Shown: positions 4,517-62,116 of the stretch, piece after piece
Position numbering within the stretch: position 1 is the first letter of the stretch
Layout of the letters: each line of letters begins with the position of its first letter
Source of the DNA: Eutreptiella sp. 'Long Island Sound 2002'
Taxonomy: Eukaryota > Euglenozoa > Euglenophyceae > Eutreptiales > Eutreptiaceae
Length of the DNA stretch: 64,000 nt
Assembly: GCA_964036045.1 (NCBI GenBank)
Contig: OZ038392.1
Location: 42,033,478-42,097,477, forward strand
Direction of reading: 5' to 3'
The notes under the pieces: generated by a model
The model's input: the letters and a program-made list of their open reading frames with translations, nothing else
Databases searched by the model: none
What the model was told of the DNA's origin: nothing
Translations under genes and position numbers: made by a program

Positions 4517-4575
4517 ATTCTCGTTTACGGAGCATAGTGTCTCGAGGAAAGCTGGAAGCAATGCCCGTCTCTTAA

Positions 4576-4793: not shown

Positions 4794-4853
4794 TAGGAGA
4801 TGGACATCACACTCCCAGGTTTTAGCGACCCCATATGCTCGGTAAAAGAGAAA

Positions 4854-4927
4854 GACAAAAAAGTCCAGCCTTGGCAAGGGCCATAGGCTCACTTATGGGG
4901 GCCTTCCCAAGGCTGGACTTTTTTGTC
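4854..4927. repeat. Hairpin repeat, copy 2
   Basis: Second copy of the 4443-4516 hairpin. With the preceding MITE it makes a direct duplication of a two-part unit of about 340-370 bp. Confidence 0.7.
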
Positions 4928-4929
4928 AT

Positions 4930-9190: not shown

Positions 9191-9584
9191 TTCACTGTTC
9201 TGAAATTCGGAGGCAATGGCAAAACACATTGAAACTGCAAACTGCAGCTGTGTGACTGTACATAAAAGACAGCAGTCAAAATCGAGTCAATGTCCTCGTA
9301 AAGGTGAATATACAGCAAACCTCCATTGTCACCTGTCACCTGAAGTGAAATATATAGAAACGGTGATAACGGTGGCGTTCTAGGGGGTGGTGCGGAACCC
9401 CTAGTTAGAACGCAATTTCTGGAACACCCACCTACCCTCAATTTTGGGGCAAACCACCTAAAAAAATGGATTCAGCACCCTCAAAAACCCCCCATCCCCT
9501 TTCTTTCCCCACATAACCCTCATTGTAGGGGTGGTTTTTGGGAGGGGGTCAAAGAGTTAGAGCAAAGTTAGAACAGAGTTAGAA

Positions 9585-9690
9585 CGCAGCTAGAACACCT
9601 TGCTCTAACTAGTTATCGCGCTAGTTATCGCGCGATAACTCAGTTATCGGTCGGTCATCGCGTGTAGTTATCGCGCACCCCTCCTCCCTC
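9585..9690. repeat. Palindromic GATAAC/GTTAGAG array in the 3' region of U0
   Basis: Words GTTAGAACRC, CTAGTTATCGCGCGATAACT and AGTTATCGCG repeated. It lies between the TIR-proximal block (9376-9560) and the A stop codon. Counterparts: 53610-53735 (U1) and 54330-54445 (U2). Confidence 0.8.
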
Positions 9691-12360: not shown

Positions 12361-12935
12361 GTGGAGGATGCCTTCCACAAGGAAGTCGCATCAACTGAAA
12401 TAACAACAATGGCAACGCCACTAGGGGGGGGTTTCCCGATAACTCGGTCCATAGATATTGCATTTTGCACAATTGATTGCAAAGGCACATGGGCAGCTGC
12501 CCTATTGCAGCATGTGGTAGACTTTACAATGGTTGTTTGGGGAAAGTAGGGCATGATCCGTTGCCGAACGGTCCTTAGGTCCCGTTGTGTGCAACGGCGG
12601 GGCATTCGCAAAAGGGCCCGTTGGGAGAGATGCATGCTGCATGCCATGCGTAGCCTGCTCAGGGCCTCATGCTCCTGAGCTGTTAATGCAAGATGGCCGC
12701 CAAGTGGGCCAGACAGGGCAGTGCACGCCCCACCACTGAAACAAACTTTGCCTTTGGTGTTGGTGCCACACACAACGTTTGGGTCACCCAATGGAACTCG
12801 CACCAGCCGCTGAACCGCCTTCAAACGCCGCCGCCGGGCCTTGGGGCACTGCAGATCGGTGTACCGCCGGAGGTTAGCTGTGTTGAGAGTCCACAGGGCC
12901 TCATTAACAGCAGTATCCATGAGGCATAAGAGGAC

Positions 12936-13176
12936 CTGGGCACGAAATGAGGGAGGGTTTTGAAGCAAGGGCCCAAAAAACACACGCGATAATCCACACG
13001 ATAACCCCCGCGATAACTAGGTTATCGCGCGATAACCCCCGCGATAACCCCCTGCGATAACTAGTTAGAGCGCGATGACCCCCCGCGATAACTAGTTAGA
13101 GCACCCAGTTATCGCGCGATAACCCCCGCGATAACTAGTTAGAGTAGGGGTTAGTGCGCACTAACTGGAGGGGTTA
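12936..13176 (-). repeat. Distal part of the B-A intron of U0, palindromic array
   Basis: From the acceptor CCCAG (12937-12936 on the minus strand) to the LTR1 insertion point. Repeats of CGCGATAACC, CCCGCGATAACTAGTTAGAG and GTGCGCACTAACTGG. The remainder of this intron continues at 43213-43490. Confidence 0.8.
13172..13176. repeat. Target duplication GGTTA, left of LTR1
   Basis: GGTTA precedes the 5' LTR here and follows the 3' LTR at 43213-43217. The unoccupied sequence, GGAGGGATTAGAGCAAGC, is seen inverted in U1 near 51630. Confidence 0.8.
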
Positions 13177-43212: not shown

Positions 43213-43490
43213 GGTTAGAGCAAGCGTTGGGCACCCTAAAACCTTCACAGACGTTGATTTTGCACCCAGGAAACCTTGGAGATGTCGACAATGTGCAGGC
43301 ACGGGGCACAATCACAAATTCAAATCAGTCAAATGGACATGTTTCGGGCTAGTTGCCCCTCCTCAGCTGAAAGAGTACACAATGACAAACCATGGTGGGC
43401 ATCACACCAAAGCAGAAAGAAAAGAAACAATGAACAACAATCGAATCACAAATTACACTAGCTGGAGGGGTTAGAGCAAGCATTGGGCAC
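43213..43490 (-). repeat. Proximal part of the B-A intron of U0
   Basis: On the minus strand it starts at the donor GTGCCCAATGCTTGC (43490) and matches the U1 intron 51364-51640. It contains a second copy of the donor region (GGTTTTAGGGTGCCC type) near 43230, so an internal duplication exists. The remainder lies at 12936-13176. Confidence 0.8.
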
Positions 43491-45288
43491 CCTAAAACCC
43501 ATGGACACCAGCTGCTGCCGCCACAGAGGCGTGCAGTGCAGAACCCCCCCCGCACTATAAAAAATCACGCTCCATCGCTCGCCCCCCCATGGAACCCGAG
43601 GGTGTAGTGCCCTGGTGTTGAACAACACCGGGGCTTGGGGGCTGGCGGTGCATGCCCAACCCTCCACCGCCCTACCTTTGCACACACGGGTGTGCCGCTT
43701 TTTTTCCCTCATGGAGGGATTCAGCAGGCCACCACTCTCCACCCAAAACTCACCCCCCGTGAAAGACCCCACACACAAAATAAGCGCCATGGGCGCCACA
43801 TCCCGCAAATGGGAGTGGAGGCCCATGCTGTCCGTCCCTTGGGGGCGAACAACTTGGATGCTACACCATGTGAACCATGGTGGAGCATTGGAGGTGCAAT
43901 ACCCATTGAGGTCTGCAACCAAGGGGGTGAGGGCAGGCCTGAGGGTAGCAGCGGCCATGTGGGTCGCCCTAAAATTAGAGGGGTTGGGGTTTCCACTTCC
44001 CACGAGGCCGAAGTTGCACATGTCCACTTGGGCCCCATATCACTCCTCCCCACGAAAAATGCCCTTGGGCAACCCCCTTAGCAAACCCACGAGTCATTGA
44101 CTCCCACTCCTACTCCCGCTACCCTGACTTTGCACCCCTTGCGGCGCCATCCCCTGCTGGGCGGTGAAGGAGGCACTGAGGGTGGAGGTGATGCTGCGCA
44201 CCTGCGCCTCAGCCACCCCCAAGCGCTGCTGGAGGTCATCCCCCCTCCTCCGCTGCCCCTCCACCTCCACCCTCAGCTGGGCCGCCTCCACACCGCCTTC
44301 CGCCTCCCCTCCTCGGCCTCCCTCAGGTCCTCCCTCATCGCCTCCACCCCCTCCCCCCTCTTGGCGGCCACGTTGAGGGCCTGGTCCAGGGCACGCTGGG
44401 TGTTGCCCTGGACCTTTTCAGCCTTCGTCAAGGCCGACTTGTGGTCGGCCGACCGACCCTTGGCCAGTGCGGCCTCGACCCCCGTGGTGGCCGCCTGCTC
44501 CACCAAAACCTGGCAAGCGTCCGTCACGTGGGTGGCCACACTGGCCCCCAAGGCCTCCACCCCCAGGGCCTCATGGGGGGGCTGGGCCGCCGCCACCTTT
44601 GCCACCTTCGATGGCTTGGGGGAGGGCTTGGGGGCGGGGGTTTGGCCCTTACCCCTAAGGGGGGGGGGGGCATCCGGCTCAACCACCACCACCTCAGGTC
44701 CCCGCTTTGTCTGCTTTCCCGGCCTTTCCCCCTTGGGTGCATACTGCCGAACCCAATCGGTAGGCGTCCACCACAGAAGGGGGGGGGGTCATACCCACCA
44801 ACCTGGTGGATGTCCCCCCCCCTGTGCAGCTTCTGCCACACTTCCCTCCCCGTATACCCCCCCCCCCCAAAAAAACACACCCTCAAAAGGAAAAAAGATT
44901 TCCTTTGGGGGGGGTCGCTCATCCCAAACAAACACAAAAAAGCCGCAACCGTTTCCCCCTCTGCGGCATTCGGCCACTTGGCCGTTTCCCCCCCAACCCG
45001 CACATAGGAGGGGAGGGTGAGGTTGATCTTTCTCTCCACCCCCCCCTCCTTCTCGGTGATGGTGACCTGCTGGTACCATCCCGTCCCCCCCATCCTGCAG
45101 GCCTCATCTGCAGGCTCCCCCCACCGCCACGACGCCCCCTCCGGCGGCCTCTTCTCCGCCTCCAGCTCCACCCGGACCGCCACCGGCTTGGCGGGCCGTG
45201 CCCCTGCTGCTTCTGCTGCTCCTCCTGCTGCCTCGGCTGCCTGGGCGTCGTCCTTGACGAAGATACGGGGCAGCTGCAAGATGGTAGC
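43491..45288 (-). pseudogene. Module B of U0: coiled coil plus 2OG-oxygenase-like domain
   Basis: The exon starts after TTTTTTTCAG (45289-45290) and ends at the donor TTTTAGG|GTGCCC. The N-terminal part (SWRWGEP, WYQQVTITEKEGG, VAAFLCLFGMS) is unrecognised. The middle is Ala/Glu/Arg-rich and heptad-like (44094-44600), ending at a TGA. The C-terminal part (from 44027) has FTGGEFWVE, FNTRALHP and GERWSVIFYS, the layout of a 2OG-Fe(II) oxygenase barrel end (distal His, then Arg in the G-x-R-x-S strand). Frames change at G-runs near 44650 and 44860, so this copy is broken. It is 211 bp longer than the U1 exon, which has lost a segment here. Confidence 0.55.
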
Positions 45289-45529
45289 CTGAAAAAAACA
45301 AAAGAAACAAAAAAAAACACGCGATAACCCGCGCGATAACCCCCGCGATAACTAGGTTATCGCGCGATAACCCCCGCGATAACCCCCCGCGATAACCCCG
45401 CGATAACTAGTTAGAAAGCGATAACCTAGCGCAATAACTAGTTAGAGCACCTAGTTAGAACGCGATAACCTAGCGCGATAACTAGTTAGAGCAGGGGTTA
45501 GAGCAGGGTGTTGTGGGAAGTTTTGACAC
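45289..45529 (-). repeat. C-B intron of U0 (241 bp)
   Basis: Donor CACCAG|GTGTCAAAAC, acceptor TTTTTTTCAG|GCTACC. The interior is a degenerate array of GCGATAACC, CTAGTTATCGC and AGTTAGAGC. Exactly 241 bp, as in U1 and U2. Confidence 0.85.
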
Positions 45530-45582
45530 CTGGTGACATGGACACATGCCTTGGCCCTCCTTCTTGGCGTCGTCCAGCACCA
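45530..45582 (-). pseudogene. Last piece of the C exon of U0
   Basis: Encodes the end of module C on the minus strand (VLDDAKKEGQ, then CPCHQ) up to the donor. It is separated from the rest of the C exon by U1, whose CA duplication (45581-45582) marks the junction. Confidence 0.8.
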
Positions 45583-45760
45583 TGGGATGCAGCATTCTAG
45601 GGCGTGGTGCGGAACGCCCCCAATTGAGGGTGTTGTTAATATGGTTGGAACCCGGAAATTCACATGTTACATGGGTGCACTATGATGCAACAATGTTCCT
45701 TCCATGTTTCGTTTGCTCGATATTGCCCGTTTTGCACTCTTTGCGATTTGATCTTTGTGT
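45583..45760 (+). other. U1 5' leader
   Basis: TIR followed by a block (45610-45755) ending CGATTTGATCTTTGTGTGCT, conserved at the 5' ends of U2 (59400-59540) and U0 (61640-61690). It probably contains promoter and untranslated first exon; no donor is conserved clearly enough to place intron 1's start. Confidence 0.6.
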
Positions 45761-45899
45761 GCTCTAACTAGTTAGAATGGGGTTGGAACGGGGTTAGAGC
45801 ACTAGTTATCGCGGGGGTTATCGCGCGATAACCTAGTTATCGCGGGGCTTATCGCGGGGGTTATCGCGCTTCATTTTATGTTTCTGCTTTTCGCTGTAG
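45761..45899 (+). repeat. U1 intron 1 array and acceptor
   Basis: CTAACTAGTTAGAATGGGG, then repeated GGTTATCGCG words, then a pyrimidine tract ending TTTTCGCTGTAG (45899). The same acceptor context precedes the C exon in U0 and U2. Confidence 0.75.
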
Positions 45900-48800
45900 C
45901 TCTCAAAGCCTTCGTATTCTTTGATAATGGCCCTTGCTGCTGCCCACGCTTGGTGCGAGCACCATCAAAAGCTCCTTGGGGTCCGTCGCCTTGGCGGTCC
46001 TGAGGGGTTTACGAAAGGTGATGCCAATGTGAGGCGCCCCGTGGCGACCCGCTTTGAACATGGTGTGGACTTTGGACTCCTTGTCCATAAGTCCCCCTTC
46101 ATGGCGGACAAGAGAGACCCCCTGGTTCTCAGCAACTACATCTTCGAGTTGCTAGAGGTGAATCCAGGCGTTGCTGGATTTTTGATCCAGCTTCATCCCG
46201 AGAACATGGACGCTGTGGTGGAGTCCGTCACCGCCCATGCCGAGAAGGGTGCGGGGACGAAGACGACCCTCTATGTGGGTCAGGAGGAGGAGGAGGAGGA
46301 AGTGGAGGAGGAGGAGGCGGATGTGGGGGGGTTGGGGGCTGGGGGGAGGAAGGAGAAGCCCCACAACCCCCTTATGATTAGTGTCTAGAAGGTAAGGGTG
46401 AGACCTGGTAAGGGGAAGGGGAAGTCGGATGGTTGGTTCCCCCAACCTCTCACCCACAACACCCGCCACGTATGCACTGACGAACCCAAAAACAAGCTCC
46501 CCATGCACTCCCTTTGCCCCACAAGGGAGTGAGAGCGTGAGTGGTATGGGGTCACCCCTCCCAACATTATTTCAGGGCAGGGGGTGATTCTTTTTCCATT
46601 TGGGGCAACACCCCCCCTTATTGGGGAGGCGGAGGAGGTGGTTGCTGCCGAGCCCTTGGGGGCCTTTAATAGGGACCCCAATCACCTTGTGCTCACGGTG
46701 GGGGGGAAAGCTGATGGTCAACCACCTCCTGGAGCACGATTTTTTGAGTGACATTCAGCTGCAAAGTCTTTTGGAAGATTTGGATAGGGTGCCTCTCCCA
46801 GAGAAAGCACCCATTTTCAATGAGAACCCCCCCATTGTCGGCAGGCCCCAAGATTCTGGGACCCGTCGCACATTGTATGGCAACTATGGGGGCGCCGACC
46901 ACCACAAGCACAACCTCCACAAGCTCCATGATCTGCCAGTCGTGTGCTTGAGACCCCGAAGAAGACTGTGGTGGGGGGTGTCAGATGGAGCTGCACCATC
47001 CTTGACATGGCCGAACTTTCGAGCTATGACCACACCCCCCAGCACCTCCATCGCGACGCCCCTCCCTACACCATTCCTGAAGGCACATTGATTGTCAATT
47101 GCCTTATTATGCTAACCCATAATCATGAGGAGGAGGATGGGTCACATTTTCTCTTTGTGCCCTCCAGCAGTTCGGGGTTCCCTGACCCTTGGGTGGAGAG
47201 GGCTGTGCCATTCAAGAGGGGCACTGCCTTTTTTTTTAATGCCCTTGATGTCCACCGGTGGTCAGGGATTCCCAAGGCCTCCCCCACGGGGGTGAGGGAC
47301 CCCCGCCTCATGGCATTTTTTGCCATTGATCTTCCCATGGGGGGAAAATCTTCGATTCCCCAACCTGCACGTGACGCAGTCCATTAAAAGGCCCCAGCTT
47401 GGGGCACCTGGTGGCCGGGTGGCTTAGACAGTCCAGTGTGATGGGGCGCTTAGGTGTAGGGGGAAGGTGGTAGCCAATTGCTGCGGATGCAATCGGCTGA
47501 TTTTGTGCACGGCCCACCAAGATGGCCTTTGTGTGCCATGCCAGGAGGGGGAGGAGGTGGAGGGGGGGGAGGAGGAGGTGGTGGTGGTGGACCCCAATGG
47601 GGTCAGCATTGAGCAATCTGCTCAGCGCTTGCTCCCGCTGGGAACAACAACCGGGGATTTTTTGTTGTCGGGGTGGGGGATTGGGAGGGAGGTGATTGCC
47701 CCCCTCACTAATGAGGAGGCGGGGGCGGTCGCAGGCCACCCCGATCAGTGCCCCTTGGCCAAGGTGTGCCATGGGGAGGCACTGCCCTGGCCCTCCCTGC
47801 AAGCAGGGTTGGTACCGTACGGCGTTCATGAACGCGTACCGTCTGCGAACGCGTACCGTCTGGTATAAATACCGCACAGCACGTGTGCGGTATTGAGATG
47901 GTGCCGCAGACAGGCACCGCATTGCAGCACGCGCGCACGCTAGACGGAAAATTGCCAGATGAATTGAAATATTGCGAAAAACACGCTGCTGGATCGAAAG
48001 TTTACTACCGATGTTGGTAATGAGCATTATTATGCATTACGGCACCACTTTTAGTCTTGAATCGTAATGTCACCATGCTACCATGTGCCTTGTCCGTGAA
48101 TTTTTGGAGCGAAACGTGACGAATTCTACCACGGTGAAATCCAGAAAACACAAAGACGTCAAAGGAGTGGGGGAAAAGAAGTTGGGAGACCCCTTCAAAA
48201 CCGCGTCAGAAAAGTTCCACCGACGCCAAGCCCAAATGAAGCAACCCGTCGCCGAAGCTTGCAGCGATCAGCGTGATGACCACCCTACTGACGAGCGGCG
48301 TGTATGTTCGGGCCTCAGCCCCTCTCCCTGTGCAAGCGCAAGCCTCATGCTCCAGTGATGCGTCCACCAACGTGCAAGCCTCAGCAATGGGCATAGAATC
48401 AGGGCGAAGCAGCCCTGCGCGCACTGTGCGGGACTTCAAGGCGAAGCAGCACTGCGCGTAAAGTCAAGGCGAAGCAGCACTGCGCGTGAAGTCAAGGCGA
48501 AGCAGCACTGAGCGTAGAATCAGAGCGAAGCAGCACTGCGCGCACGGCGCGTGAAGTCAGGGCGACGCGTGAAGTCAGGGCGACGCAGCACTGCCTGGGG
48601 CGACCTCCGCGCTGCGCCCAAGCGCCAAGGTAAATAAGCGTCGTCTGCCTCCAGTTGTATTCGCCAGAAGTCTTGTTTTCAGTGTGTGTCACGTGCGTGT
48701 GCCTGTCATTCACATGCAATGAGTGGATCTGTTAATTTGACTTTGGCCTCTGTGCCTCCATCAACCCTGAGGCGTGGCATGCATGTGTGTATCGATATCC

Positions 48801-49535
48801 TGATGTGTAGCCTTGCCTTTGTTTAGCTCTGTTGAATCCTGGGACCCCTCTTTCAAGGCCCACGCTTAGCGCTGGACCAGGAAGAAGACAGTGTGCAGTA
48901 AAGTCGACGTTAAAGTATTCTTTGTGTCTGAGTTGCCGGGCAAGACAGGGTAGAGCTGAAAAGTCATTTGCACGGTGTTTTAAGAAACATTGTCTTTTTG
49001 GCTAAACTGCAGGCAGGGTAGTGCATAAAAGGGAAGCAAACAATTTAAGGTGTGAATCATTTGCAGGGTGTTTTGAGAAACATTAAAAAGCAGGTCTGTG
49101 GTAACAAATATTTGTTGAAATTTTCTGGTGTTTTTGGGACAAAAGTTTGGTTGTTGGAATCAGCTCAAATATATCGTAAAACCAAGGATTCAGCGGACAT
49201 TTAGTGGTGCCTACTGGGTCTTCATTGGGGCCAGGCGATACCATACAGGACACCGGAGTACTGTATGGTATCGATACCGAACGGTACACGTACTGTATGG
49301 TACCAACCCTGCCTGCAAGGGCATGTTGGGATTAAGGTGCCGGCGGGCACCATTTTGGTGGTGAGGAGGGGGTTGTATGGGGGAGTGGCAAGGGTGGCCC
49401 AGGGTGGCCCAGGTGGTGGAGTGGCGGCAGGTGGGGGAGTATGCGGCCGTCACCGACTTCGTGTGGCTGCGGAGGCTGGGCCTGGTGCTCGACGACGCCA
49501 AGAAGGAGGGCCAAGGCATGTGTCCATGTCACCAG
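45900..49535 (+). pseudogene. Module C of U1: 2OG-Fe(II) dioxygenase-like protein, split by hAT
   Basis: The exon opens in frame after GTAG (CTCTCAAAG). Parts in order: an unrecognised N-terminus (AHAWCEHHQKLLGVRRLGG) with an acidic run; a GKGKGKSDG linker; a dioxygenase-like domain at 46944-47387 with H-x-D (cat 47049, gac 47055, in LHRDAP), distal His (47253, DVHRW) and Arg (47304, DPRLMAFFAI); a Cys-rich cluster (47430-47545); and a C-terminus resumed after the hAT, 49320-49535, ending CPCHQ at the donor. The H-x-D...H...R order is that of 2OG-Fe(II) oxygenases. A TAG at 46386, frame changes around 46560-46920 and the hAT make it a pseudogene, but the catalytic triad is intact here. Confidence 0.6.
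47804..49311. mobile_element. hAT-like non-autonomous element, copy B (1508 bp)
   Basis: Ends CAGGGTTGGTACC and GGTACCAACCCTG, perfect 13-bp inverse. An 8-bp duplication CCTGCAAG flanks it (47796-47803; 49312-49319). The unoccupied site can be read in the C copies near 54110 and 57722. Same length as copy A and nearly identical, including the 28-bp tandem array. Confidence 0.92.
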
Positions 49536-49776
49536 GTGTGAAAACGTCCCGCAACACCCTGCTCTAACCCCTGCTCTAACTAGTTATCGCGCTAGGTTAT
49601 CGCCTTCTAACTAGGTGCTCTAACTAGTTATCGCGCTAGGTTATCGCTTTCTAACTAGTTATCGCGGGGTTATCGCGGGGGGTTATCGCGGGGGTTATCG
49701 CGCGATAACCTAGTCATCGCGGGGGTTATCGCGCGGGTTATCGCGTGTTTTTTTCTGTTTCTTTTGTTTTTTTCAG
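49536..49776 (+). repeat. U1 C-B intron (241 bp)
   Basis: Donor CACCAG|GTGTGAAAAC and acceptor TTTTTTTCAG|GCTACC. Interior array of TTATCGCG, CTAGTTATCGCGCTAGG and GGGGTTATCGC words. It joins C to B in phase 0. Confidence 0.85.
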
Positions 49777-51363
49777 GCTACCATCTTGCAGCTGTCCGTA
49801 TCTTCATCAACGGACGACGCCCGGGCAGCCGAGTCAGCAGGAGGAGCAGCAGAAGCAGCAGGGGCACGGCCCGCCAAGCCGGTGGCGGACCAGGTGGAGC
49901 TGGAGGGGGAGAAGAGGCTGCCGGAGGGGGCGTCGTGGCGATGGGGGGAGCCTGGGGATGAGGCCTGCAGGATGGGGGGGACGGGATGGTACCGGCAGGT
50001 CACCATCACCGAGAAGTAGGGGGGGGTTGAGAGGAAGACCAACCTCACCCTCCCCTCCTATGTGTGGGTTGGGGGGGGAAACGGCCAAGTGGCCAACTGC
50101 CGCAGAGGGGGAAACGGTTGCGGCTTTTTTGTGTTTGTTTGGGATGAGCGACCCCCCCCAAAGGAAATCTTTTTTCCTTTTGAGGGTGTGTTTTTTTGGG
50201 GGGGGGGCCAAACCCCCGCCCCCAAGCCCTCCCCCAAGCCATCGAAGGTGGCAAAGGTGGCGGCGGCCCAGCCCCCCCATGAGGCCCTGGGGGTGGAGGC
50301 CTTCGGGACCAGTGTGGCCACCCACGTGAAGGACGCTTGCCAGGTTTTGGTTGAGCAGGCGGCCGCCACGGGGGTCGAGGCCGCACTGGCCAAGGGTCGG
50401 TCGGCCGACCACAAGTCGGCCTTGGCGAACGCCGAAAAGGCCCAGGGCAACACCCAGCGTGCCCCGGACCAGGCCCTCAACCTGGCTGCCAAGAGGGGGG
50501 AGGAGGTGGAGGCGATGAGGGAGGCCCTGAGGGAGGCCCAGGAGGGGAGGCGGAAGGCGGAGGTGGAGGCGGCCCACCTGAGGGTGGAGATGCAGGGGCA
50601 GCGGAGGAGGGGGGATGCCCTCCAGCAGCGCTTGGGGGTGGCTGAGGCACAGGTGCGCAGCATCACCTCCACCCTCAGTGCCTCCTTCACCGCCCAGCAG
50701 GGGCTGGCGCCGCAAGCGGTGCAGAGTCAGGGTAGCGGGAGTAGGAGTGGGAGCCAATGACTCGTGGGTTTGCTAAGGGGGTTGCCCAAGGGCATTTTTC
50801 GTGGGGAGGAGTGATATGGGGCCCAAGTGGACATGTGCAACTTCGGCCTCGTGGGAAGTGGAAACCCCAACCCCTCTAATTTTAGGGCGACCCACATGGC
50901 CGCTGCTACCCTCAGGCCTGCCCTCAGCCCCTCTGTTGCAGACCTCAATGGGTATTGCACCTCCAATGCTCCACCATGGTTCACATGGTGTGGCATCCAA
51001 GTTGTTCGCCCCCAAGGGACGGACACCATGGGCCTCCACTCCCATTTGCGGGATGTGGCGCCCATGGCGCTTATTTTGTGTGTGGGGTCTTTCACGGGGG
51101 GTGAGTTTTGGGTGGAGAGTCGTGGCCTGCTGAATCCTTCCATGAGGGAAAAAAAGCGGCACACCCGTGTGTGCAAGGGTAGGGCGGTGCAGGGTTGGGC
51201 ATACACCGCCAGCCCCCAAGCCCCGGTGTTGTTCAACACCAGGGCACTACACGCTCCATTGCCATGGGAGGGCGAGCGATGGAGCGTGATTTTTTATAGT
51301 GCGGGGGGGGCTCTGCACCGCACGCCTCTGTGGCGGCGGCAGCTGGTGTCCATGGGTTTTAGG
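49777..51363 (+). pseudogene. Module B of U1: coiled coil plus 2OG-oxygenase-like domain
   Basis: The N-terminal part is Ala-rich (AAESAGGAAEAAGA) then unrecognised. A TAG at 50017 and G-run frame changes break it. The frame at 50200-50757 encodes an Ala/Glu/Arg heptad-rich stretch (EEVEAMREALREAQEGRRKA), a likely coiled coil. It ends in TGA (50758-50760), with a second TGA at 50812 in the same frame. Both are also present in U0, so they may lie in a short unrecognised intron or separate two proteins. The final part has LHSHLRD (51034-51054), FTGGEFW, distal His 51250 (ALHAPLP) and Arg 51277 (GERWSVIFYS), resembling a 2OG oxygenase core. It joins A in phase 0 at TTTAGG|GTGCCC. Confidence 0.55.
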
Positions 51364-51867
51364 GTGCCCAATGCTTGCTCTAACCCCTCCAGCTAGTGTA
51401 ATTTGTGATTGGATAGTTGTTCATTGTTTCTATTTTTTGTGCTTTGGTGGGATGCTCACCATGGTGTACTCTTTCAGCTGAGGAGGGGTAACTGGCCCGA
51501 AACATGTCCATTTGACTGATTTGAATTTGTGATTGTGCCTCGTGCCTGCACATTGTTGACATCTCCAAGGTTTCCTGGGTGCAAAATCAACGTTTGTGAA
51601 GGTTTTAGGCTGCCCAATGCTTGCTCTAATCCCTCCAGTTAGTGCGCACTAACCCCTGCTCTAACTAGTGAACGCGGGGGTTATCGCGCGATAACCGGGT
51701 GCTCTAACTAGTTATCACGGGGGGTTATCGCGCTCTAACTAGTTATCGCGGGGGGTTATCGCGGGGGTTATCGCGCGATCACCTAGTTATCGCGGGGGTT
51801 ATCGCGTGGGTTATCGCCTGTGTTTTTTGGGCACTTGCTTCAAAACCCTCCCTCATTTCGTGCCCAG
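51364..51867 (+). repeat. U1 B-A intron (504 bp)
   Basis: Donor AGG|GTGCCCAATG, acceptor TTTCGTGCCCAG|GTCCTC. The second half is an array of GGTTATCGCG, TAGTTATCGCGGGGG and CTCTAACTAGTTATC words. A partial duplicate of the donor region lies at about 51600. Confidence 0.82.
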
Positions 51868-53542
51868 GTCCTCTTATGCTCCATGGATAGTGCTGTCAAT
51901 GAGGCCCTGCGGACTCTCAACACAGCTAACCTCCGGCGGTACACCTATCAGCAGTGCCCCAAGGCTCGGCGGCGGCGTTTGAAGGCGGTTCAGCGGCTGG
52001 TGCGAGTTGTTTTGGGTGACCCAAACGTTGTGTGTGGCACCAACACCAAAGGAGAAGTTTGTTTAAGTGGTGGGGCTTGCACTGCCCTGTCTGGCCCACT
52101 TGGCGGCCATCTTGCATTAACAGCTCAGGAGCATGAGGCCCTGAGCATGCTACGCATGGCATGCAGCATGCATCTCTCCCAGCGGGCCCTTTTGCGAATG
52201 CCAACGCGTTGCACACAACGGGACCTAAGGACCGTTCGGCAACGGGTCATGCCCTACGTTTCCCAAGCAACCATTGTAAAGTCTACCACATGCTGCAATA
52301 GGGCAGCTGCCCATGTGCCTTTGCAATCAATTGTGCAAAATGCAATATCTATGGCCCGAGTTATCGGGAAACTCCCCCCTAGCGGCGTTGCCATTGTTGT
52401 TATTTCAGTTGATGCGACTTCCTTGTGGAAGGCATCCTCTACCCGTGCAGATGTATGGGTCAATGTATGGGGGGGGGCAAAGTATGCTTCGAAGGTGAAG
52501 CTATGGGCCTCATGGTTTTGCATGGATGGCGGGGTTGAACAGGCTTTTTTGAGAAGCCTGAAACATCTCCGCCAACCTCAACCAAGAGGTGAGGGATGTG
52601 GAAGAGGACGTTGTCCTCTTTCAAAACCAATTTTTGACTTGCACTGTCATTTTGGCAGGGGATGGGAAGGGGATGCAAGCAATGGGGGGGGCTGTGTCTA
52701 AGTGTTGGTTGTGCAAAGACCCCAATGGGATTGTTGAGCAAAGGGGGGTGGAGTCCACCTCAAGATGGGGGGCATTCTTCAGAAGTGTGACCCCTGATAG
52801 GCGGCCGGGGGACTACCAACATGCAGCATGCCGCATCCTAAACGGCATTGCAAAGCGCATTGAGACCACCCTTCAGGCCCTCCCCCCTGGTACCCCTGGT
52901 AAGGCCCAAGCTCTTGCAGCTTTGCAGGCCTTCAAACAAGCCCTCAAGGATGAGGCTTCAGGCATCCCTCTGAGGGAACGCCTCCCTCCAGCCTCCAGGG
53001 CCACAGAAAAAGATTTAGATCTAACAAGCACCAAAGTTTTCCTAACCTCCCCTCCCTTCCAAAGGCAATTTGTGGATTGCCTCAAAGAGCATGTCCCCAC
53101 AGTGAGGACCCCTGGGGGACCTATGTTATGGGTTGTTGTGCATGTCATGGTGAAATGCATTGAGGGTTTGTATGAGCTTTGGAGGGTGAGGGAGTTGTAC
53201 ACTCTAACCCAAGTGGAACGCCACCGTGCGTGGACCACAAAATTTTCAAAAGCCTGGGGAGACTCAGTTGGGTCCCCCACCAGGTGGATCCATTGGTGCT
53301 TGGCAAATTCCACCTTTTTTGCCGAGAAATGGAGGCACATTTTTCAGTTTTCCTCCATCCCAACGGAGTATCGGCATGGGCCTTACAAAAGGAGGCTCAA
53401 AAATTGTTTTAAGGGTTGGTCCTTGGTGAGGCCAAGTGTGTCCCCCCGCCACATGCACCATTGCATGTCCATGAACACCCTGGAGCAAGGGCTTTTGGGA
53501 CTGGAGGCAGCCAAGGCCTCAGACATTGATGACCTTGTATGA
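51868..53542 (+). pseudogene. Module A DDE transposase of U1, one frameshift
   Basis: 1675 bp from acceptor to TGA, one base more than the 1674-bp U0 exon. The extra A lies near 52563 (CTGAAACATC against CTTAACATC in U0), giving the only break. It carries D182 (52411), D265 (52661), C-x2-C (about 52702), the His-rich segment and E500 (53366) on the same spacing as U0. It is followed by a palindromic array and the 3' TIR. It is the transposase candidate for the whole U family; distant CACTA/KDZ-like resemblance only. Confidence 0.65.
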
Positions 53543-53922
53543 AAAACGACCACACATGCTTTGTGCCAAGTGTTTTGTGTTGTTTGTGCTAGGGAGGGAG
53601 GGAGGAGGGGTGCGCGATAATTACACGCGATAACTACGCGATAACTGAGTTATCGCGCGTTAACTAGCGCGATAACTAGTTAGAGCAAGGTGCTCTAACT
53701 GTGTTCTAACTCTGTTCTAACTGTGCTCTAACTCTTTGACCCTCCCCAAAAAACCACCCCTACAATGAGGGTTATGTGGGGAAAGAAAGGGGATGGGGGG
53801 TTTTTGAGGGTGCTGAATCCATTTGTTTAGGTGGTTTGCCCCAAAATTGAGGGTAGGTGGGTGTTCCAGAAATTGCGTTCCAACTAGGGGTTCCGCACCA
53901 CGCCCTAGAACGCTGCATCCCA
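53543..53922 (+). repeat. U1 3' region: array and TIR-proximal block
   Basis: An array of CGCGATAACTA and GTTAGAGCAAGGTGCTCTAAC at 53610-53735, then a conserved block (53740-53890) shared with 9385-9560 and 54155-54330, then the TIR. Arrays thus occur outside introns too. Confidence 0.8.
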
Positions 53923-54137
53923 CAGGCCCAGCCTCCGCAGCCACACGAAGTCCGTGACAGCCGCATACTCCCCCACCTGCCGCCCCTCCACCACCTGGGC
54001 CACCCCCTGCACCTCAGGGGCCACCCTTGCCACTCCCCCATACAACCCCCTCCTCACCACCAAAATGGTGCCCGCCGGCACCTTAATCCCAACATGCCCT
54101 TGCAGGACGGGCCAGGGCAGTGCCTCCCCATGGCCCA
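53923..54137 (-). pseudogene. Middle piece of the C exon of U0
   Basis: On the minus strand encodes the segment GHVGIKVPAGTILVV to the WLR region of module C. It is bounded on the left by U1 and on the right by U2, each with CA at the junction. It shows that U1 and U2 entered the same exon about 210 bp apart. Confidence 0.82.
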
Positions 54138-54329
54138 TGGGATGCAGCCATCTAGGGTGTGGTGCGGAACCCCTAGTTAGAACGCAATTTCTGGAACACC
54201 CACCTAGCCTCAATTTTGGGGCAAACCACCTAAACAAATGGATTCAGCACCCTCAAAAACCCCCCATCCCCTTTCTTTCCCCACATAACCCTCATTGTAG
54301 GGGTGGTTTTTTTGGGGGGGTCAAAGAGT

Positions 54330-54450
54330 TAGAGCACAGTGAGAACAGAGTTAGAACACAGTTGGAGCACCTTGCTCTAACTAGTTAACGCGCTAGTTAT
54401 CGCGCGATAACTCAGTTATCGCGCAGTTATCGCGGGTAGTTATCGCGCAC
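54330..54450. repeat. U2 3' palindromic array
   Basis: GTTAGAGCACAGTGAGAACA and AGTTATCGCGCGATAACTC words between the TIR-proximal block and the A stop codon. Confidence 0.75.
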
Positions 54451-54517
54451 CCCTCCTCCATCCCCCAGTAGGACAAACAACACAAAACACTTGGCACAAA
54501 GCATGTATGGTCGTTTT

Positions 54518-55765
54518 TCATACAAAGTCATCAATGTCTGAGGCCTTGGCTGCCTCCAGTCCCAAAAGCCCTTGCTCCAGGGCATTCATGGACATGCAAT
54601 GGTGCATGTGGCGGAGGGACATAGTTGGCCTCACCAAGGACCAACCCCTAAAACAATTTTTGAGCCTCCTCTTGTAAGGCCCATGCCGATACTCCGTTGG
54701 GATGGAGGAAAACTGAAAAATGTTCCTCCATTTCGGGGGGTACCAAGGGGGAGGGCCTGAAGGGTGGTCTCAGTGCGCTTTGCAATGCCGTTTAGAATGC
54801 GACCTGCTGCATGTTGGTAGTCCGCCGGCCGCCTGTCAGGGTCACACTTCTCAAGAATGCCCCCCATCTTGAGGTGGACTCCACCCCCATTTGCTCAACA
54901 ATACCATTGGGGTCTTTGCACAACCAACACTTAGACCCAGCCTCCCCCATTGCTTGCATTCCCTTCCCATCCCCTGTCAAAATGAGAGTGCAAGTCAAAT
55001 ATTGGTTTGCAAAGAGGACAACGTCCTCCTCCACATCCCTCACCTCTTAGTTGAGGTAGGCGGAGATGTCCAGGCTTCTCAAAAAAGCCTGTTCATCCCC
55101 GCCATCCATGCAAAACCATGAGGCCCATAGCTTCACCTTTGCAGCATAATTTGCCCCCCCCCATACATTGACCCATACATCTGCACGGGTAGAGGATGCC
55201 TTCCACAAGGAAGTTGCATCAACTGAAATGACAACAATGGCAACGCCGCTAGGGGGGAGTTTCCCGATAACTCGGGCCATGAATATTGCATTTTGCACAA
55301 TTGACTGCAAAGGCACATGGGTGGCTGCCCTATTGCGGCCTGTGGTAGACTTTACAATGGTTGCTCGGGGAAAGTAGGGCATGACCTGTTGCCGAACCGT
55401 CCTTTGGTCCCGTTGTATGCAACGGCGGGGCATTCGCAAAGGGGCCCGCTGGGAGAGATGCATGCTGCATGCCATGGGTAGCCTGCTCAGGGCCTCATGC
55501 TCCTGAGCTGTGAATGCAAGATGGCCACCAAAAGGGCCAGACAGGGCAGCACACGTCCCATCGCTTAAACAAACTTCTCCTTTGGTGTTGGTGCCACACA
55601 CAATGTTCGGATCACCCAATAGAACTCGCACCAGCCGCTGAACAGCCTTCAACCGCCGCTGCCGGGCCTTGGGGCACTGCAAATCAGTGTACCGCCGGAG
55701 GTTAGCTGTGTTCAGAGCCCTGAGGTCCTCGTTAACAGCATTATCCATGAAGAATATAAGAGGCC
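54518..55765 (-). pseudogene. Module A of U2, deleted
   Basis: Starts at the same acceptor context (TGCCCAG, exon from 55765). The N-terminal 233 codons are readable and keep the DATSLW Asp. Then a TAA replaces CAA (55049-55047), a base is missing near 54838, and the region from about the TLQALP segment to the distal FSSIPTE block has been removed, joining at about 54738. The deletion takes the His-rich region, so this copy cannot encode an active transposase. Confidence 0.75.
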
Positions 55766-55809
55766 CTGGGCAGGAAATGAGGGAGGGCTTTGAAGCAAGG
55801 GCCCAAAAA

Positions 55810-56010
55810 ACACACGTGATAACCCACGCGATAACCTCCGTGATAACTAGGTTATCGCGCGATAACCCCCGTGATAACCCCCCGCGATAATTAGTTAGAA
55901 CGCGATAACCCCCCGCGATAACTAGTTAGAGCACCCAGTTAGAGCGCGATAACTACCGCGATAACTAGGTAGAGCAGAGGTTAGTGCACTATGCACATGC
56001 GCACTAACTG
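55810..56010. repeat. U2 B-A spacer palindromic array
   Basis: CGTGATAACCC, GGTTATCGCGCGATAACCCC and AGTTAGAGCGCGATAACTAC words. It is on the intron side of the A acceptor. Confidence 0.8.
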
Positions 56011-56014
56011 GTGC

Positions 56015-56375
56015 TCTAACCCCGTTCTAACCCCGTTCTAACTAGTTAGAGCACACAAAGACCCGTTTCTAACCCTGTTCTAACCCTGTTCTAACTAGTT
56101 AGAGCACACAAAGACCCCGTTCTAACCCCGTTCTAACTAGTTAGAGCACACAAAGACCCCGTTCTAACCCCGTTCTAACGTCGTTCTAACTAGTTAGAGC
56201 ACACAAAGACCCCGTTCTAACCCCGTTCTAACTAGTTCGAGCACACAAAGACCCCGTTTTAACCCCGTTCTAACTAGTTAGAGCACACAAAGGATCCGTT
56301 CTAACCCCGTTCTGACTAGTTAGAGCACACAAAGACCCCGTTCTAACCCCGTTCTGACTAGTCAGAGCACACAAA
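56015..56375. repeat. 42-bp minisatellite
   Basis: About eight tandem units of CCCCGTTCTAACCCCGTTCT followed by AACTAGTTAGAGCACACAAAGA. It is absent from the equivalent place in U0 and U1. The same words occur once at the 5' ends of the elements (45760, 59360, 61600), so the array appears grown from leader sequence. Confidence 0.88.
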
Positions 56376-57246
56376 GATCAAATCGCAAAAAGTGCAAAAC
56401 GGGCAATATCGAGCAAACGAAACATGGGGCTTGGGGGGTGGCCTTGCATGCCCAACCCTCCACCGCCCTACCCTTGCACACACGGGTGTGCCGCTTTTTT
56501 TCCCTCAGGGAGGGATTTAGCAGACCACCACTCTCCACCAAAAAATCACCCCCGGTGAAAGACCCCACACACACAATAAGCGCCATGGGCGCCCCATCAC
56601 GCAAATGGGCGTGAAGGCTCATGGTGTCCGTCCCTTGGGGGCGAACAACTTGGATGCTACACCATGTGGAGGTGAGGGTGCGCACCTGCGCCTCAGCAAA
56701 CCCCCGGCGCTGCTAGAGGTCATCCCCCCTCCTCCGCTGCGCCTGCACCTCCACCCTGAGCTGGGCCGCCTCCACCTCCGCCTTCCGCCTCCCCTTCTCG
56801 GCCTCCCTCAGGGCCCCCCTCATCGCCTCCACCTCCTCCCCCCTCTTGTTGGCAAGGTTGAGGGCCTGGTCCAGGGCAAGCTGGGAGTTGCCCTGGACCT
56901 TTTCGGCGTTCGCCAAGGCCGACTTGTGGTCGGCCGACCGACCCTTGCCCAGTGCAGCCTAAACACCCGTGGCGGCCGCTTGCTCCACCAAAACCTTACA
57001 AGCGTCCGTCACGTGGGTGACCACACTGGCCCCCAAGGCCTCCTCAGGGGGGGGCTGGGCTGCCACCTTCGACACCTTCCACGGCTTGGGGAAGGGGGCG
57101 GGGCCCTTGCCCCTATGGGGGGGGGGGGGCATCCGCCTCAACAACCACCACCTCAGGCCGCCGCTTCGTCTGCTTTCCCGGCCTTCCCCCCTTGGCGCCT
57201 GGGCTTCGTCCTTGACAAGAAAATTCGGCAGCTGCAGGATGGTGGC
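56376..57246 (-). pseudogene. Module B of U2, truncated
   Basis: From the acceptor (57247-57248) the Ala/Glu-rich coil is readable (56713-56916), then a deletion joins TLTST directly to WCSIQVV of the oxygenase-like part. FTGGDF is kept, but the distal His and Arg strand is replaced: the frame runs from ATPQAP into sequence of the 5' leader type (CATGTTTCGTTTGCTCGAT). This is a recombinant or aberrant junction, not a functional gene. Confidence 0.7.
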
Positions 57247-57487
57247 CTGAGAAAAACAAAAGAAACAAAAAAAAACACGCGATAACCCGCGCGATAACCC
57301 GCGCGATAACCTAACTAGAACGCGATAACCCCCGCGATAACCCCCCGCAATGACCCCGCGATAACTAGTTAGAACGCGATAACCTAGCGCGATAACTAGT
57401 TAGAGCACCTAGTTAGAAGTCGATAACCTAGCGCGATAACTAGTTAGAGCAGGGGTTAGTGCAGGGTGTTGTGGGACGTTTTCACAC
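57247..57487 (-). repeat. U2 C-B intron (241 bp)
   Basis: Donor CACCAG|GTGTGAAAAC, acceptor TTTCTCAG|GCCACC, interior array of GCGATAACC and CTAGTTAGAAC words. Third copy of the same length. Confidence 0.85.
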
Positions 57488-59211
57488 CTGGTGACATGGG
57501 CACATGCCTTGGCCCTCCTTCTTGGCGTCGTCCAGCACCAGCTTCATCCCTCTCAGCCACATGAAGTCCGTGACGGCGGCATAGTCCCCGACGTGCCTCC
57601 ACTCCACCGCCTGGGCCACCCCCTCGACCTCAGGGGCCACCGGGCCCTTGCCACTCCTCCATACAATCCCTTCTTCACCACCAAAATGCAGCCCGGCGGC
57701 ACCCTAATCCCAACATGCCCTTGCAGGGAGGGCCACGGCAGTGCCTCCCCATGGCACACCTTGGCCAAGGGGCACTGATCGGGGTGGCCTGTGACCCCCC
57801 CCACCTCGTCATTAGTGAGGGGGGCAATCACCTCCATCCCATTCCTCCACCCCGACAACAAAAAATGCCCGCTGGTTGTTCCCAGTAGGAACAATCTGCT
57901 CAGTGCTAGCACTGAGCACATTGCTCCATGCTGACCCCATTGGGGTCCTCCACCACCACCTAGCTCCTCCTCCCCCCCCTCGACCTCCTCCCCCTCCTGG
58001 CATGGCACACAAAGGCCATCCTTGTGGGCGGCGCACAAAACCGCCCGGTCGTAGCCGTAGCACTTGGTGACGACCTTCCCCCTACACCTAACCGCCCCGT
58101 CACACAGGACTGTCTTGGCCAACCACCCACCAGGTGCAGCTCCATCTGACACCCCCCACCACAGTCTTCTTCGCCTCCTCCAGCACACGATCTGCCACCC
58201 TTTTGAGGACTGGCAGATCATGGAGCTTGTGCGGGTTGTGCTTGTGGTGGTTGGCACCCCCATACTTGCCATACAATGTGCGGCGGGTCCCAGAATCTTG
58301 GGGCCTGCCGACAATGGGGGGGTTCTCATTGAAAATGGGTGCCTTCTCTGAGAGAGGCACCCTATCCAAATCGTCCAAAGGACTTTGCAGCTGCATATCA
58401 CTCAAAACATCGTGCTCCAGGAGGTGGTTGACCACCAGCCTTCCCCCCACAGTGAGCACAAGGTCATTGGGGTCCCTATTAAAGGCCCCCATGCAAGGGC
58501 TCGGCGGCAACCACCTCCTCCGCCTCCCCAGTAAGGGGGGGTGATGCCCCAAATGGAAAAAGAATCACCCCCGCCCCGAAATAATGTTGGGAGTGGTGAC
58601 CGCATACCAGTCACGCTCCAAAAAGGAGTGCATGAGGAACTTGTTTTCGGGGTCGTCAGTGCAAACCCGGCAAGTGTTGTGAGTGAGGGGTTAGGGGAAC
58701 CATCCATCCGACTTCCCCTTCCCCTTACCCGGTTGGATCCTTCCCTTCTGCACACTAATCATGAGGGGGCCGTGGGGCTTCTCCTTCCCCCTGCCAGCCC
58801 CCACCTCCTCAACTTCCTCCACTTCCTCCTGACCCACATAAAGGGTCATCTTCGTCCCTCCACCCTTCTCGGCATGGGCGGTGACAGACTCGAACACGGC
58901 GTCCACATCCTCGGGATGCAGCTGAATCAAGAATCCAGCAACCCCTGGAGTTACCTGTAGCAACTCGAAGATGTAGTTGCTGAGAACAAGGGGGTCTCTG
59001 TGGTCGGCCATGCAGGGGGACTTATGGAGAAGGAGTCCAAAGTCCACACCTCGTTCAAAGGGAGTCGCCACAGGGCGCCTCACATTGGCATCACCCATCG
59101 TAAACCCCTCGGGACCGCCAAGGGGACGGACCCCAAGGAGCTTTTGATGGTGCTCGCACCAAGGGTGGGCAGCAGCCAGGGCCATTACAAAGAATATGAA
59201 AGCTTTGAGAG
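57488..59211 (-). pseudogene. Module C of U2, dioxygenase domain deleted
   Basis: The exon begins after TTTAG (59212-59213) with the same N-terminus as U0 and U1 (AHPWCEHHQKLLGV). Near 58140 the frame jumps from VRWSCT straight to WWVVGQDSPV and the Cys cluster (CDGAVRCRGKVV, CAAHKDGLCVPC), so the whole HxD...H...R domain is missing. The C-terminus continues to the donor. Several frame changes at G-runs are also present. Confidence 0.75.
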
Positions 59212-59570
59212 CTAAAGCGAAAAGGGGAAACATAAAATGAAGCACGATAACCTACGCGATAACTCGCGCGATGACTAGTTATCGCACGATAACCCCCGCG
59301 ATAACCCCCGCGATAACTAGGTTATCGCGCGATAACCCACGCGATAACTAGTGCTCTAACCCCGTTCTAACCCCGTTCTAACTAGTTAGAGCACACAAAG
59401 ATCAAATCGCAAAAAGTGTAAAACGGGCAATACCGAGCAAACAAAACATGCAAGGCACATTGTTGCATCATAGTGCCCCCGTGTAACATGTGAAATTCCG
59501 GGTTCCAACCATATTAACAACACCAAAAATTGGGGGGGTTCCGCACTACGCCCTAGAATGCTGCATCCCA
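59212..59570 (-). other. U2 intron 1 array, leader and 5' TIR
   Basis: Array of CGCGATAACC words at 59240-59400, a leader block (59400-59540) and the terminal repeat, mirroring 45583-45899. Confidence 0.8.
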
Positions 59571-61453
59571 CACCTTGGCCAAGGGGCACTGATCGGGGTG
59601 GCCTGCTACCGCCCCCGCCTCCTCATTAGTGAGGGGGGCAATCACCTCCCTCCCAATCCCCCACCGCGACAACAAAAAATGCCCGGTGGTTGTTCCCACC
59701 GGGAGCAAGCACTGAGCAGATTGCTCAATGCTGACCCCATTGGGGTCCACCACCACCTCCTCCTCCTCCCCCCAGTCCACCTCCTCCCCCTCCTGGCATG
59801 GCACACAAAGCCCATCTTTGTGGGCGTTGCACAAAATTAGCCGATTGCATCCGTAGCAATTGGCTACCACCTTCCCCCTACACCTAAGCGCCCCATCACA
59901 CTGGACTGTCTTGGCCACCCGGCCACCAGGTGCCCCCAGCTGGGGCCTTTTAATGGACTGCGTCACGTGCAGGTTGGGAAATCGAAGATTCCCCCCCTGG
60001 GTAAGCTCAATGGCAAAAAATGCCATGACGCGCGGGTCCCTCATCCCCGTGGGGGAGGCCTCCGGAATCCCCGACCCCCGGTGGACATCAAGGGCATAAA
60101 AAAAAAGGCAGTGCCCCTCTTGAATGGCACAGCCCTCTCCACCCAAGGGTTAGGGAACCCCGAACTGCTGGAGGGCACAAAAAGAAAATGTGACCCATCC
60201 TCCTCCTCATGATTATGGGTTAGCATAATAAGGCAATTGACAATCAATCTGCCTTCAGGAATGGTGTAGGGAGGGGCGTCGCGAGGGAGGTGCTGGGGGG
60301 TGTGGTCATAGCTCCAGATTTCGGCCATGTCAAGGATGGTGCAGCTCCATCCAACCCCTCCCACCACAGTCTTCTTTGCGGTCTCAAGCACACAATCTGC
60401 CGCTGTTTTGAAGACTGGCAGATCATGGAGCCTATGGGGGTTGTGCTTGTGGTGGTCGGCGCCCCCATAGTTGCCATACAATGTGCGGCGGGTCCCAGAA
60501 TCTTGGGGCCTGCCGACAATGGGGAGGTTCTCATTGAAAATGGGTGCCTTCTCTGAGAGAGGCACCCTATCCAAATCTTCCAAAAGACTTTGAAGCTGAA
60601 TGTCACTCACAAAATCCTGCTCCAGGAGGTGGTTGACCACCAGCTTTTCCCCCACCGTGAGCACAAGGTCATTGGGGTCCCTATTAAAGGCCCCCAAGGG
60701 CTCGGCGGCAACCACCTCCTCCGCCTCCCCAATAAGAGGGGGTGTTGCCCCAAATGGAAAAAGTATCACCCCCCGCCCCGAGATAATGTTCGGAGTGGTG
60801 ACCCCATACCACTCACGCTCCCACTCCCTTGTGGGGCAAAGGGAGTGCATGGGGAGCTTGTTTTCGGGGTCGTCAGTGCATACCCGGCGGGTGTTGTGGG
60901 TGAGGGGTTGGGGGAACCCAACATCCGACTTCCCCTTCCCCTTACCAGGTCTCACCCTCACCTTCTGGATACTAATCATAAGGGGGTTGTGGGGCTTCTC
61001 CTTCCTGCCCCCGGCCCCCGACCCCCCCACATCCTCCTCCTCCTCCTCCACTGCCTCCTCCTCTTCCTCCTGACCCACATAGAGGGTCGTCTTCGTCCCC
61101 GCACCCTTCTCAGCATGGGCGGTGACGGACTCCACCACGGCGTCCACGTCCTCGGGATGAAGCTTGATCAAAAATCCAGCAACGCCTGGATTTACCTCTA
61201 GCAACTCGAGGATGTAGTTGCTGATAACCAGGGGGTCTCTGTTGTCCGCCATGAAGGGGGACTTATGGAAAAGGAGTCCAAAGTCCACACCATGTTCAAA
61301 GCGGGTCGCCACAGGGCGCCTCACATTGGCATCACCCATCGTAAACCCCTCAGGACCGCCAAGGCGACGGACCCCAAGGAGCTTTTGATGGTGCTCGCAC
61401 CAAGCGTGGGCAGCACCAAGGGCCATTATCAAAGAATATGAAGGCTTTGAGAG
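59571..61453 (-). pseudogene. Module C of U0, first and longest piece
   Basis: The exon starts after CTGTAG (61455-61454) with CTCTCAAAG. A 463-codon frame (61432-60041) covers the N-terminus, the acidic run (EEEEEAVEEEEED), the GKGKGKSD linker and most of the dioxygenase-like domain. A frameshift at an A-run (about 60100-60108) moves into the frame 60146-59573, which holds DVHRG, DPRVMAFFAI, and the Cys cluster CDGALRCRGKVV, CYGC, CNAHKDGLCVPC. The proximal motif reads LPRDA where U1 has LHRDA, so the first metal ligand is lost. It continues at 54137 after U2. Confidence 0.65.
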
Positions 61454-61690
61454 CTACAGCGAAAGGGGGAAACATAAAATGAAGCGCGATAAACCACGCG
61501 ATAACCCACGCAATAACTAGTTATCGCGCGATAACCCCCGCGATAACCCCCGCGATAACTAGGTTATCGCGCGATGACCCCCGCGATAACTAGTGCTCTA
61601 ACCCCGTTCTAACCCCGTTCTAACTAGTTAGAGCACACAAAGATCAAATCGCAAAAAGTGCAAAACGTGCAATATCGAGCAAACGAAACA
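61454..61690 (-). repeat. U0 intron 1 array and truncated leader
   Basis: Words CGCGATAACC and CTAGTTATCGCGCGATAACC (61480-61590), then the leader segment from GTTAGAGCACACAAAGATCA to CGAGCAAACGAAAC (about 61690), where homology with U1 and U2 leaders stops abruptly. The 5' TIR is missing. Confidence 0.75.
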
Positions 61691-62116
61691 TTGAAGGCAA
61701 CTAGCTCAGCAAGCACACAGGCACCAACTCCTCAGCCAATAACAATATTGCTCATGGTAGGGTCTGAACATGAGTGTGTGCAGTGTGCATACTTCTCTGT
61801 GGGGGAATTGTCACGTCAAGTACATCCTGAAATTTTCACTGCATACACAACCTGCCCAGCCCTCCCTTTCGTGGCACTGCAAAACGTTGCTTCCATCATT
61901 TTATCCTATAGGGCGACTTCGGGTCATGTGTGGCTGGGCCTGTGCGTCTACGTTGGGAGCTAAAAAAATTTCCCTCAGGGCTTCAGCAACAAGCGCACCC
62001 TATCCCTCCCACTGTCCCCCACACTGTCCCTCCCTCAAACAGTTGGGGTCTGCAGGGCGTAGACTGGTCACTCCGCCGAGGCCACATCCCAAATTCATCT
62101 CCTACGACACATATAT
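61691..62116. other. Spacer downstream of the RT-like ORF
   Basis: No gene recognised. Probably the 3' region of the minus-strand RT-like element, whose insertion or a deletion removed the 5' end of U0. No duplication or poly(A) is obvious. Confidence 0.4.

Follow-up and report, generated by a model that had tools for sequence, protein, structure and literature searches.

In fungi, a TET/JBP dioxygenase is carried by transposons of several unrelated groups, and its presumed role there is to reverse DNA methylation (PMC12730594). That paper itself calls the role not experimentally validated, and its text mentions neither algae nor dinoflagellates. The closest known systems to the element reported here are the fungal TET-carrying (TET+) EnSpm, Plavaka and ESTA transposons of the CMCT group (Kojima 2025, PMC12730594). 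We analyzed a stretch of 64,000 nucleotides (nt) from Eutreptiella sp. 'Long Island Sound 2002' (contig OZ038392.1, positions 42,033,478 to 42,097,477; hereafter the window), which contains U1, a complete copy of a transposon with four coding regions in the order C, B1, B2 and A. The reading that we favor, with confidence slightly above even, is that of a high-copy cut-and-paste DNA transposon in which A is the transposase, C and B1 together form an oxygenase-like accessory protein, and B2 is added to it by readthrough of a UGA stop codon.

A preliminary description of this locus had compared it with the KDZ transposons (Kyakuja, Dileera, Zisupton), a group reportedly named in a 2014 paper. 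Those that carry TET/JBP likewise combine a DNA transposon with a 2-oxoglutarate (2OG) dioxygenase, but Kyakuja and Dileera make duplications of 7 or 8 base pairs (bp) (PMC12730594) against 2 bp here; A has no Pfam match, and its C(2)C/H(4)H arrangement is the CACTA/Transib pattern, so the comparison falls. With the TET+ CMCT transposons, the element appears to share a DDE transposase of the C(2)C/H(3-4)H pattern and a 2OG dioxygenase gene, the duplications in that group being 2-5 bp (PMC12730594). The dioxygenase of those transposons is of the TET/JBP type, whereas C matches no TET/JBP model and leans to 2OG-FeII_Oxy_3/PhyH; the ends are TGGGATGC..GCATCCCA here and mostly CA..TG in the CMCT group (PMC12730594). 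Within that group, PlavakaA has 2-bp duplications and ends TGT..ACA, which compare with 2-bp duplications and ends starting TG in our element, whereas the TET+ Plavaka families all belong to PlavakaB (PMC12730594) and A has no Pfam match.

Self-comparison of the window and inspection of the ends identified three nested copies, U0, U1 and U2, with the common order C-B-A (Table 1); the bounds given for U1 in the preliminary description proved exact. U0 lies on the minus strand in five pieces from 61699 to 9375, with both tips lost. It is the oldest of the three copies, and U1 and U2 inserted into it; it also holds as inserts a long stretch at 13177-43215 and a 1.5-kb element. The termini of U1 and U2 are TGGGATGCAGC...GCTGCATCCCA and form inverted repeats some 34 bp long, whose start had been reported correctly; the flanks of both copies are CA/CA. 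U1 itself is damaged: C carries stops and frame shifts, B1 a stop and A a frame shift.

In the 2.28-Gb assembly (2205 contigs), the first 1001 bases of U1, used as a query, gave at least 42 matches (1884 candidates, 40 scored at first look). Twenty stretches were fetched around matches and are hence selected by similarity to the C end. Among their assignable left-right end pairs, 13 of 14 have an identical flanking dinucleotide (AT, TG, TA, AA, TT or CG), the sole exception being locus L017; some ends, for example in L015, L021 and L028, were left unpaired. With U1 and U2 included, 15 of 16 pairs match; the target duplication therefore comprises 2 bp and varies in sequence, and the CA duplications noted earlier at U1 and U2 are one instance of it. 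A tblastn search with C, B1, B2 and A recovered the full order C-B1-B2-A in L016, L018 and L023, and found L015, L022, L025 and L028 consistent with it within the limits of the stretch or of damage. L013, L014, L017, L019, L020 and L026 have both ends and have lost middle parts: the shorter copies are internal deletions of full-length ones. No independently moving C, B or A, which would have spoken for separate mobile units, was seen among the 20 stretches, a selection that copies without a C end would have escaped. Identity between copies is high, at 99.4% across 1.7 kb for the closest pair (L014/L020) and with a median of 96.2% for 448 pairwise stretches no shorter than 1 kb, in which other repeats may be included; this suggests that the element was fairly recently active.

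Region A is an open reading frame (ORF) of 552 amino acids (aa; P0001) with a sequence cluster of n=275. Its residues D177, D260, C274/C277, H470/H475 and E495 form the pattern D..D..CxxC..H(4)H..E, and their catalytic role is assumed from that pattern. Two metagenomic relatives, P0034 and P0036 (38% and 37% identity in the alignment), keep all of these residues; P0003, a copy of A from the same genome, has lost D260. The second H and the E are separated by 20 residues, the same step as in RAG1. A resembles, and probably works like, a member of the CACTA/Transib/RAG1 group, a placement that follows the residue pattern. No relative of A was confirmed in IMG/VR contigs or GTDB genomes, and a chance-level Pfam match to Phage_base_V (E 5.7), for part of the A of U0, was dropped.

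Codon-level constraint was gauged from variable sites whose minor base is common to at least three rows; the rows are not independent, and the values are indications, not tests. Across codon positions 1/2/3, such sites numbered 6/2/19 for A (omega-like ratio 0.24), 21/12/37 for C (0.43) and 5/5/13 for B1 (0.54). Two non-coding controls, the intron and the B2-A spacer, gave 10/9/8 and 12/21/18, with ratios of 1.50 and 0.87. These values indicate constraint on A and C and weaker constraint on B1. Ends, 2-bp duplications, copy number and this codon-level constraint on A and C support the earlier identification of a DNA transposon that encodes a DDE-type enzyme and one 2OG-oxygenase-like protein.

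Intact C measures about 680-700 aa (P0044, cluster n=220; P0045, cluster n=491). The central part contains HRD...VHR...PR, with a Cys cluster after it; the pattern HxD...H...R (HRD, VHR, R) is present in P0044, P0045, P0046 and others as well as in P0035, and several damaged copies deviate from it. When 16 C members were scanned singly, Pfam 2OG-FeII_Oxy_3 matched 8 (best E 3.9e-4) and PhyH 7 (best E 7.8e-3). Pfam includes a TET/JBP family model, which was not among the matches of these 16 members or of 13 B2 members. In P0035 an A fragment is fused to another C-like protein, which aligns with P0044 at 28% identity. This C-like part retains the catalytic-pattern residues along with the Cys cluster, and its last residues are CxCxQ, a motif that P0044 also has immediately ahead of the intron. 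Residue conservation at 28% identity is the best evidence that C may be an old 2OG-type protein, and we describe C as weakly 2OG-Fe(II)-oxygenase-like. As a separate observation, the P0035 fusion hints that this genome holds a second transposon family. Family-model and PDB searches with A, B and C yielded, beyond chance-level hits, no more than these weak matches of C. Two candidate matches were dropped: Stevor, at chance level (E 0.0053, one C member), and the PDB entry 9hcj, found with a C fragment (E 4.1e-5, no single stretch passing) and absent with the full protein. No relative of C was confirmed in IMG/VR contigs, nor, for C pieces, in phages.

The same protein could also be read as derived from an oxygenase, catalytically dead and retained to help the transposase by binding DNA or chromatin. 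Its long non-catalytic regions, its Cys cluster, the attached coiled coil and the weakness of the Pfam matches would suit such a role, but the intact C proteins and the 28%-identity paralogue share HRD, VHR and the R after them, and we regard a dead enzyme as decidedly unlikely.

The preliminary description had joined C, B and A by GT-AG introns into one spliced gene. At the C-B1 junction this stands: the block there behaves as a clean in-frame intron, with donor CAG/GTGTGA and acceptor TTTCAG/ (slashes mark the boundaries) in phase 0. In pattern scans allowing errors, 19 of the 20 donor places found have GT, and all 19 acceptor places found have AG. The first conserved stretch of B1 contains no ATG. 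B1 and B2 share a frame and are separated by a single in-frame TGA followed by C in all 10 fetched or window copies in which the site was found; by eye, no GT-AG pair would join B1 to B2 in frame without loss of the linker, which is kept in distant copies with conservative changes (P0124 versus P0087). B2 ends in TAG, and A begins with its own ATG a short way after an AG in 15 of 15 places, the stretch ahead of this ATG differing by 2 nt in U2. A is best read, from these features, as its own ORF, and a single spliced gene would hold for the C-B1 joint only, one of three joints. That all three regions are exons of one GT-AG-spliced gene, whose single protein carries two dioxygenase domains and a transposase, is a reading that we consider decidedly unlikely: the pyrimidine tracts at the C-B1 boundaries, the AG ahead of A and the presence of a repeat block at both positions agree with it, but the undivided frame interrupted by TGA, the TAG that closes B2 before the A block, the ATG of A, the 2-nt difference in U2 and a B2 without profile support all speak against it.

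The repeat blocks offer a further way to read the gene order. The motifs GTTATCGCG/CGCGATAAC have 82 matches in the window, all within 12 blocks. Each copy has four of these blocks: one ahead of C, one inside the C-B1 intron and one on either side of A. In U1 the blocks (45765-45890, 49560-49754, 51646-51828 and 53610-53740) consist of palindromic GTTATCGCG/CGCGATAAC with CTAACTAGTTAG, and U0 and U2 have theirs at the corresponding positions. Apart from the C-B1 intron, the introns supposed earlier are element-specific blocks of this kind. Splicing alone cannot explain the blocks, because one of them sits after the last ORF; binding arrays or regulatory repeats are possible. If C, B and A were separate cistrons or genes, the blocks could be promoters, trans-splicing regions or transposase-binding arrays instead of introns, which would fit a block ahead of each of C, B1 and A, a fourth after A where no exon follows, and the ATG of A. 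The conserved phase-0 splice sites between C and B1, and a B1 without ATG in its first conserved stretch, are contrary to this arrangement, which we consider unlikely, though less so than a single spliced gene.

An in-frame stop between two coding parts has precedents. Experiments on four mammalian genes have established UGA-CUAG as a readthrough signal, as reported in PMC4132726, and retroelements use in-frame stops between gag and pol, according to PMC10085805. Our element resembles these in having one such stop between coding parts, with UGA-CUAG in four copies, and differs in being a DNA transposon whose readthrough is predicted. The sequence at the stop is TGACTAG in L015, L016, L023 and L028, TGACTCG in L011, L018, U1 and U0, TGACCCG in L022 and TGACAAG in L025. 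The TGACTAG motif may represent one event, because its four copies look like one subfamily.

Several results weigh against the favored reading, in which A is the transposase, C-B1 the accessory protein and B2 its readthrough extension. TGACTAG is limited to 4 of the 10 copies, CTAG being absent in 6, and the database proteins P0102 and P0103 have a sense codon at the position of the B1-B2 stop. Against Pfam, NCBIfam, PHROGs and PDB, A gave no family model and no relevant chain. P0044 scores 14.6 bits for 2OG-FeII_Oxy_3 and 15.8 bits for PhyH, where the Pfam cut-offs are 27 and 22; a separately scanned C piece likewise stays under the Pfam gathering score, and an unrelated toxin-type model also matches 3 of the 16 C members (best E 0.055). 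AlphaFold gave no usable model of C (16 sequences, mean pLDDT, the predicted local distance difference test, 26.9) and a mean of 30.2 for B2 (15 sequences). When 51 proteins of phage P-SSM2 were compared by hhalign, its five annotated 2OG oxygenases ranked 1, 8, 16, 28 and 46 for C and 5, 10, 12, 36 and 50 for B2, all with uninformative probabilities below 1%. Set singly against older copies, the regions gave pooled ratios of 0.50 (A), 0.77 (C) and 0.88 (B1), which indicate weak constraint, and some single values exceed 1, for example C in L015 at 1.42; such values would be expected if post-insertion decay contributed.

Region B had been described as a coiled coil plus a second oxygenase-like domain. 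For B1, no Pfam family was found, ATG16 at E 0.021 for the coiled coil being at chance level, and a BAH-like look noted by eye was dropped when Pfam gave it no support. B2 has 211 codons and contains LHAPLPWEGERWSVIFY, which we take to resemble the distal H...R strand of oxygenases; this distal H...R was found in most complete B2 members. Of 49 proteins, 39 have HxH where an oxygenase would have HxD, and one (P0131) does have HxD. No 2OG model was found in a Pfam scan of 13 B2 members and no match in PDB, a profile comparison of B2 with C gave a probability of 0.1%, and no relative was confirmed in IMG/VR contigs nor, for B2 pieces, in phages. Its 10 shared variable sites divide 4/3/3 by codon position, with a ratio of 0.95 and no sign of constraint. 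Because of the HxH site, the missing profile match, the poor model and the lack of a sign of constraint, B2 is not counted here as a second oxygenase on present sequence evidence; it may be a degenerate or HxH oxygenase relative. Of the two oxygenase-like domains first proposed, C is retained, weakly, and B2 was not confirmed.

In the mechanism that we propose, A would be a transposase of the D-D-CxxC-H(4)H-E type common to CACTA/EnSpm, Plavaka, Transib and RAG1, and would excise and insert the element, a staggered cut leading to the 2-bp duplications. The accessory protein encoded upstream would consist of C, with its 2OG-Fe(II)-oxygenase-like part and Cys cluster, spliced in frame to B1, and B2 would form a C-terminal extension made only by UGA readthrough. 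C would be an active oxygenase acting on DNA bases or chromatin, by which the element would escape silencing, as proposed for fungal TET-carrying transposons; by analogy with them, it most likely oxidizes a silencing mark on DNA or chromatin.

A more far-reaching form of this proposal, which we think rather improbable, is that a RAG1/CACTA-type transposon, apparently non-fungal, independently captured a non-TET, phytanoyl-like 2OG oxygenase with a zinc-type cluster, that selection maintains it in hundreds of copies, where it acts against silencing, and that programmed UGA readthrough extends it into an HxH-type domain. If a different 2OG enzyme does serve the same purpose, transposons would have converged on oxygenase capture as a general means of countering silencing, and to ask whether C acts on a base or a histone would be to ask directly how this host silences its transposons. 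For a DNA transposon to set the dose of an accessory domain by an in-frame UGA, in the position of the gag-pol stop of retroelements, would be unusual. In the open-licence literature searched, subscription journals lying mostly beyond this scope, neither capture of a non-TET oxygenase nor a DNA transposon with an in-frame UGA was found described outside the fungal TET work.

Table 1. Features of the three transposon copies in the window (window positions).
Feature	Position	Strand	Evidence
U1, complete transposon copy C-B1-B2-A with 1.5-kb unrelated insert	45583..53922	+	ends, CA/CA flanks, copies elsewhere
U1 5' terminal inverted repeat	45583..45616	+	
U1 C coding region: 2OG-oxygenase-like part and Cys cluster; broken by insert 47804-49311, stops and frame shifts	45927..49535	+	intact relatives P0044, P0045
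C-B1 intron, phase 0, containing repeat block	49536..49776	+	donor/acceptor conservation
B1, coiled-coil region, terminating at in-frame TGA	49777..50760	+	
B2, claimed second oxygenase-like region, frame shared with B1	50761..51396	+	
Repeat block and acceptor-like AG ahead of A	51646..51867	+	
A, transposase-like ORF of U1, with frame shift	51883..53542	+	
Repeat block after A	53610..53740	+	
U1 3' terminal inverted repeat	53889..53922	-	
U2, second complete-ended copy, internal deletions	54138..59570	-	
U0 C piece, 5' tip lost	59571..61699	-	
U0 piece separating U1 from U2	53923..54137	-	
U0 B piece	43216..45582	-	
U0 A, first part	12361..13176	-	
U0 A, second part and 3' end, tip lost	9375..10852	-	

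The window contains further repeats. A 1508-bp element is present at 10853-12360 and at 47804-49311, the second place being inside U1, with 99.3% identity between the two; it has ends CARGGTTGGTACC and 8-bp duplications GTGGAGGA and CCTGCAAG, and is probably a non-autonomous hAT-like element, because its longest open frame is 96 aa. The insert 13177-43215 in U0 has 712-bp direct repeats at its ends (97.8% identity) and gag-pol-like frames. Nested inside it are a further element, whose 2349-bp direct repeats lie at 23924-26272 and 37752-40100 (98.9%) and whose antisense pol-like frame measures 1639 aa, and a pair of 889-bp direct repeats (20933-21821 and 22694-23581, 98% identity). On the minus strand at 62117-64000, a 627-aa open frame without Pfam match, reverse-transcriptase-like by eye only, leaves the window. 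At 4176-4943, direct and inverted self-matches overlap across about 770 bp, and at 56019-56376 U2 has TTAGAACGGGG-type units in tandem, an array larger than in U1.

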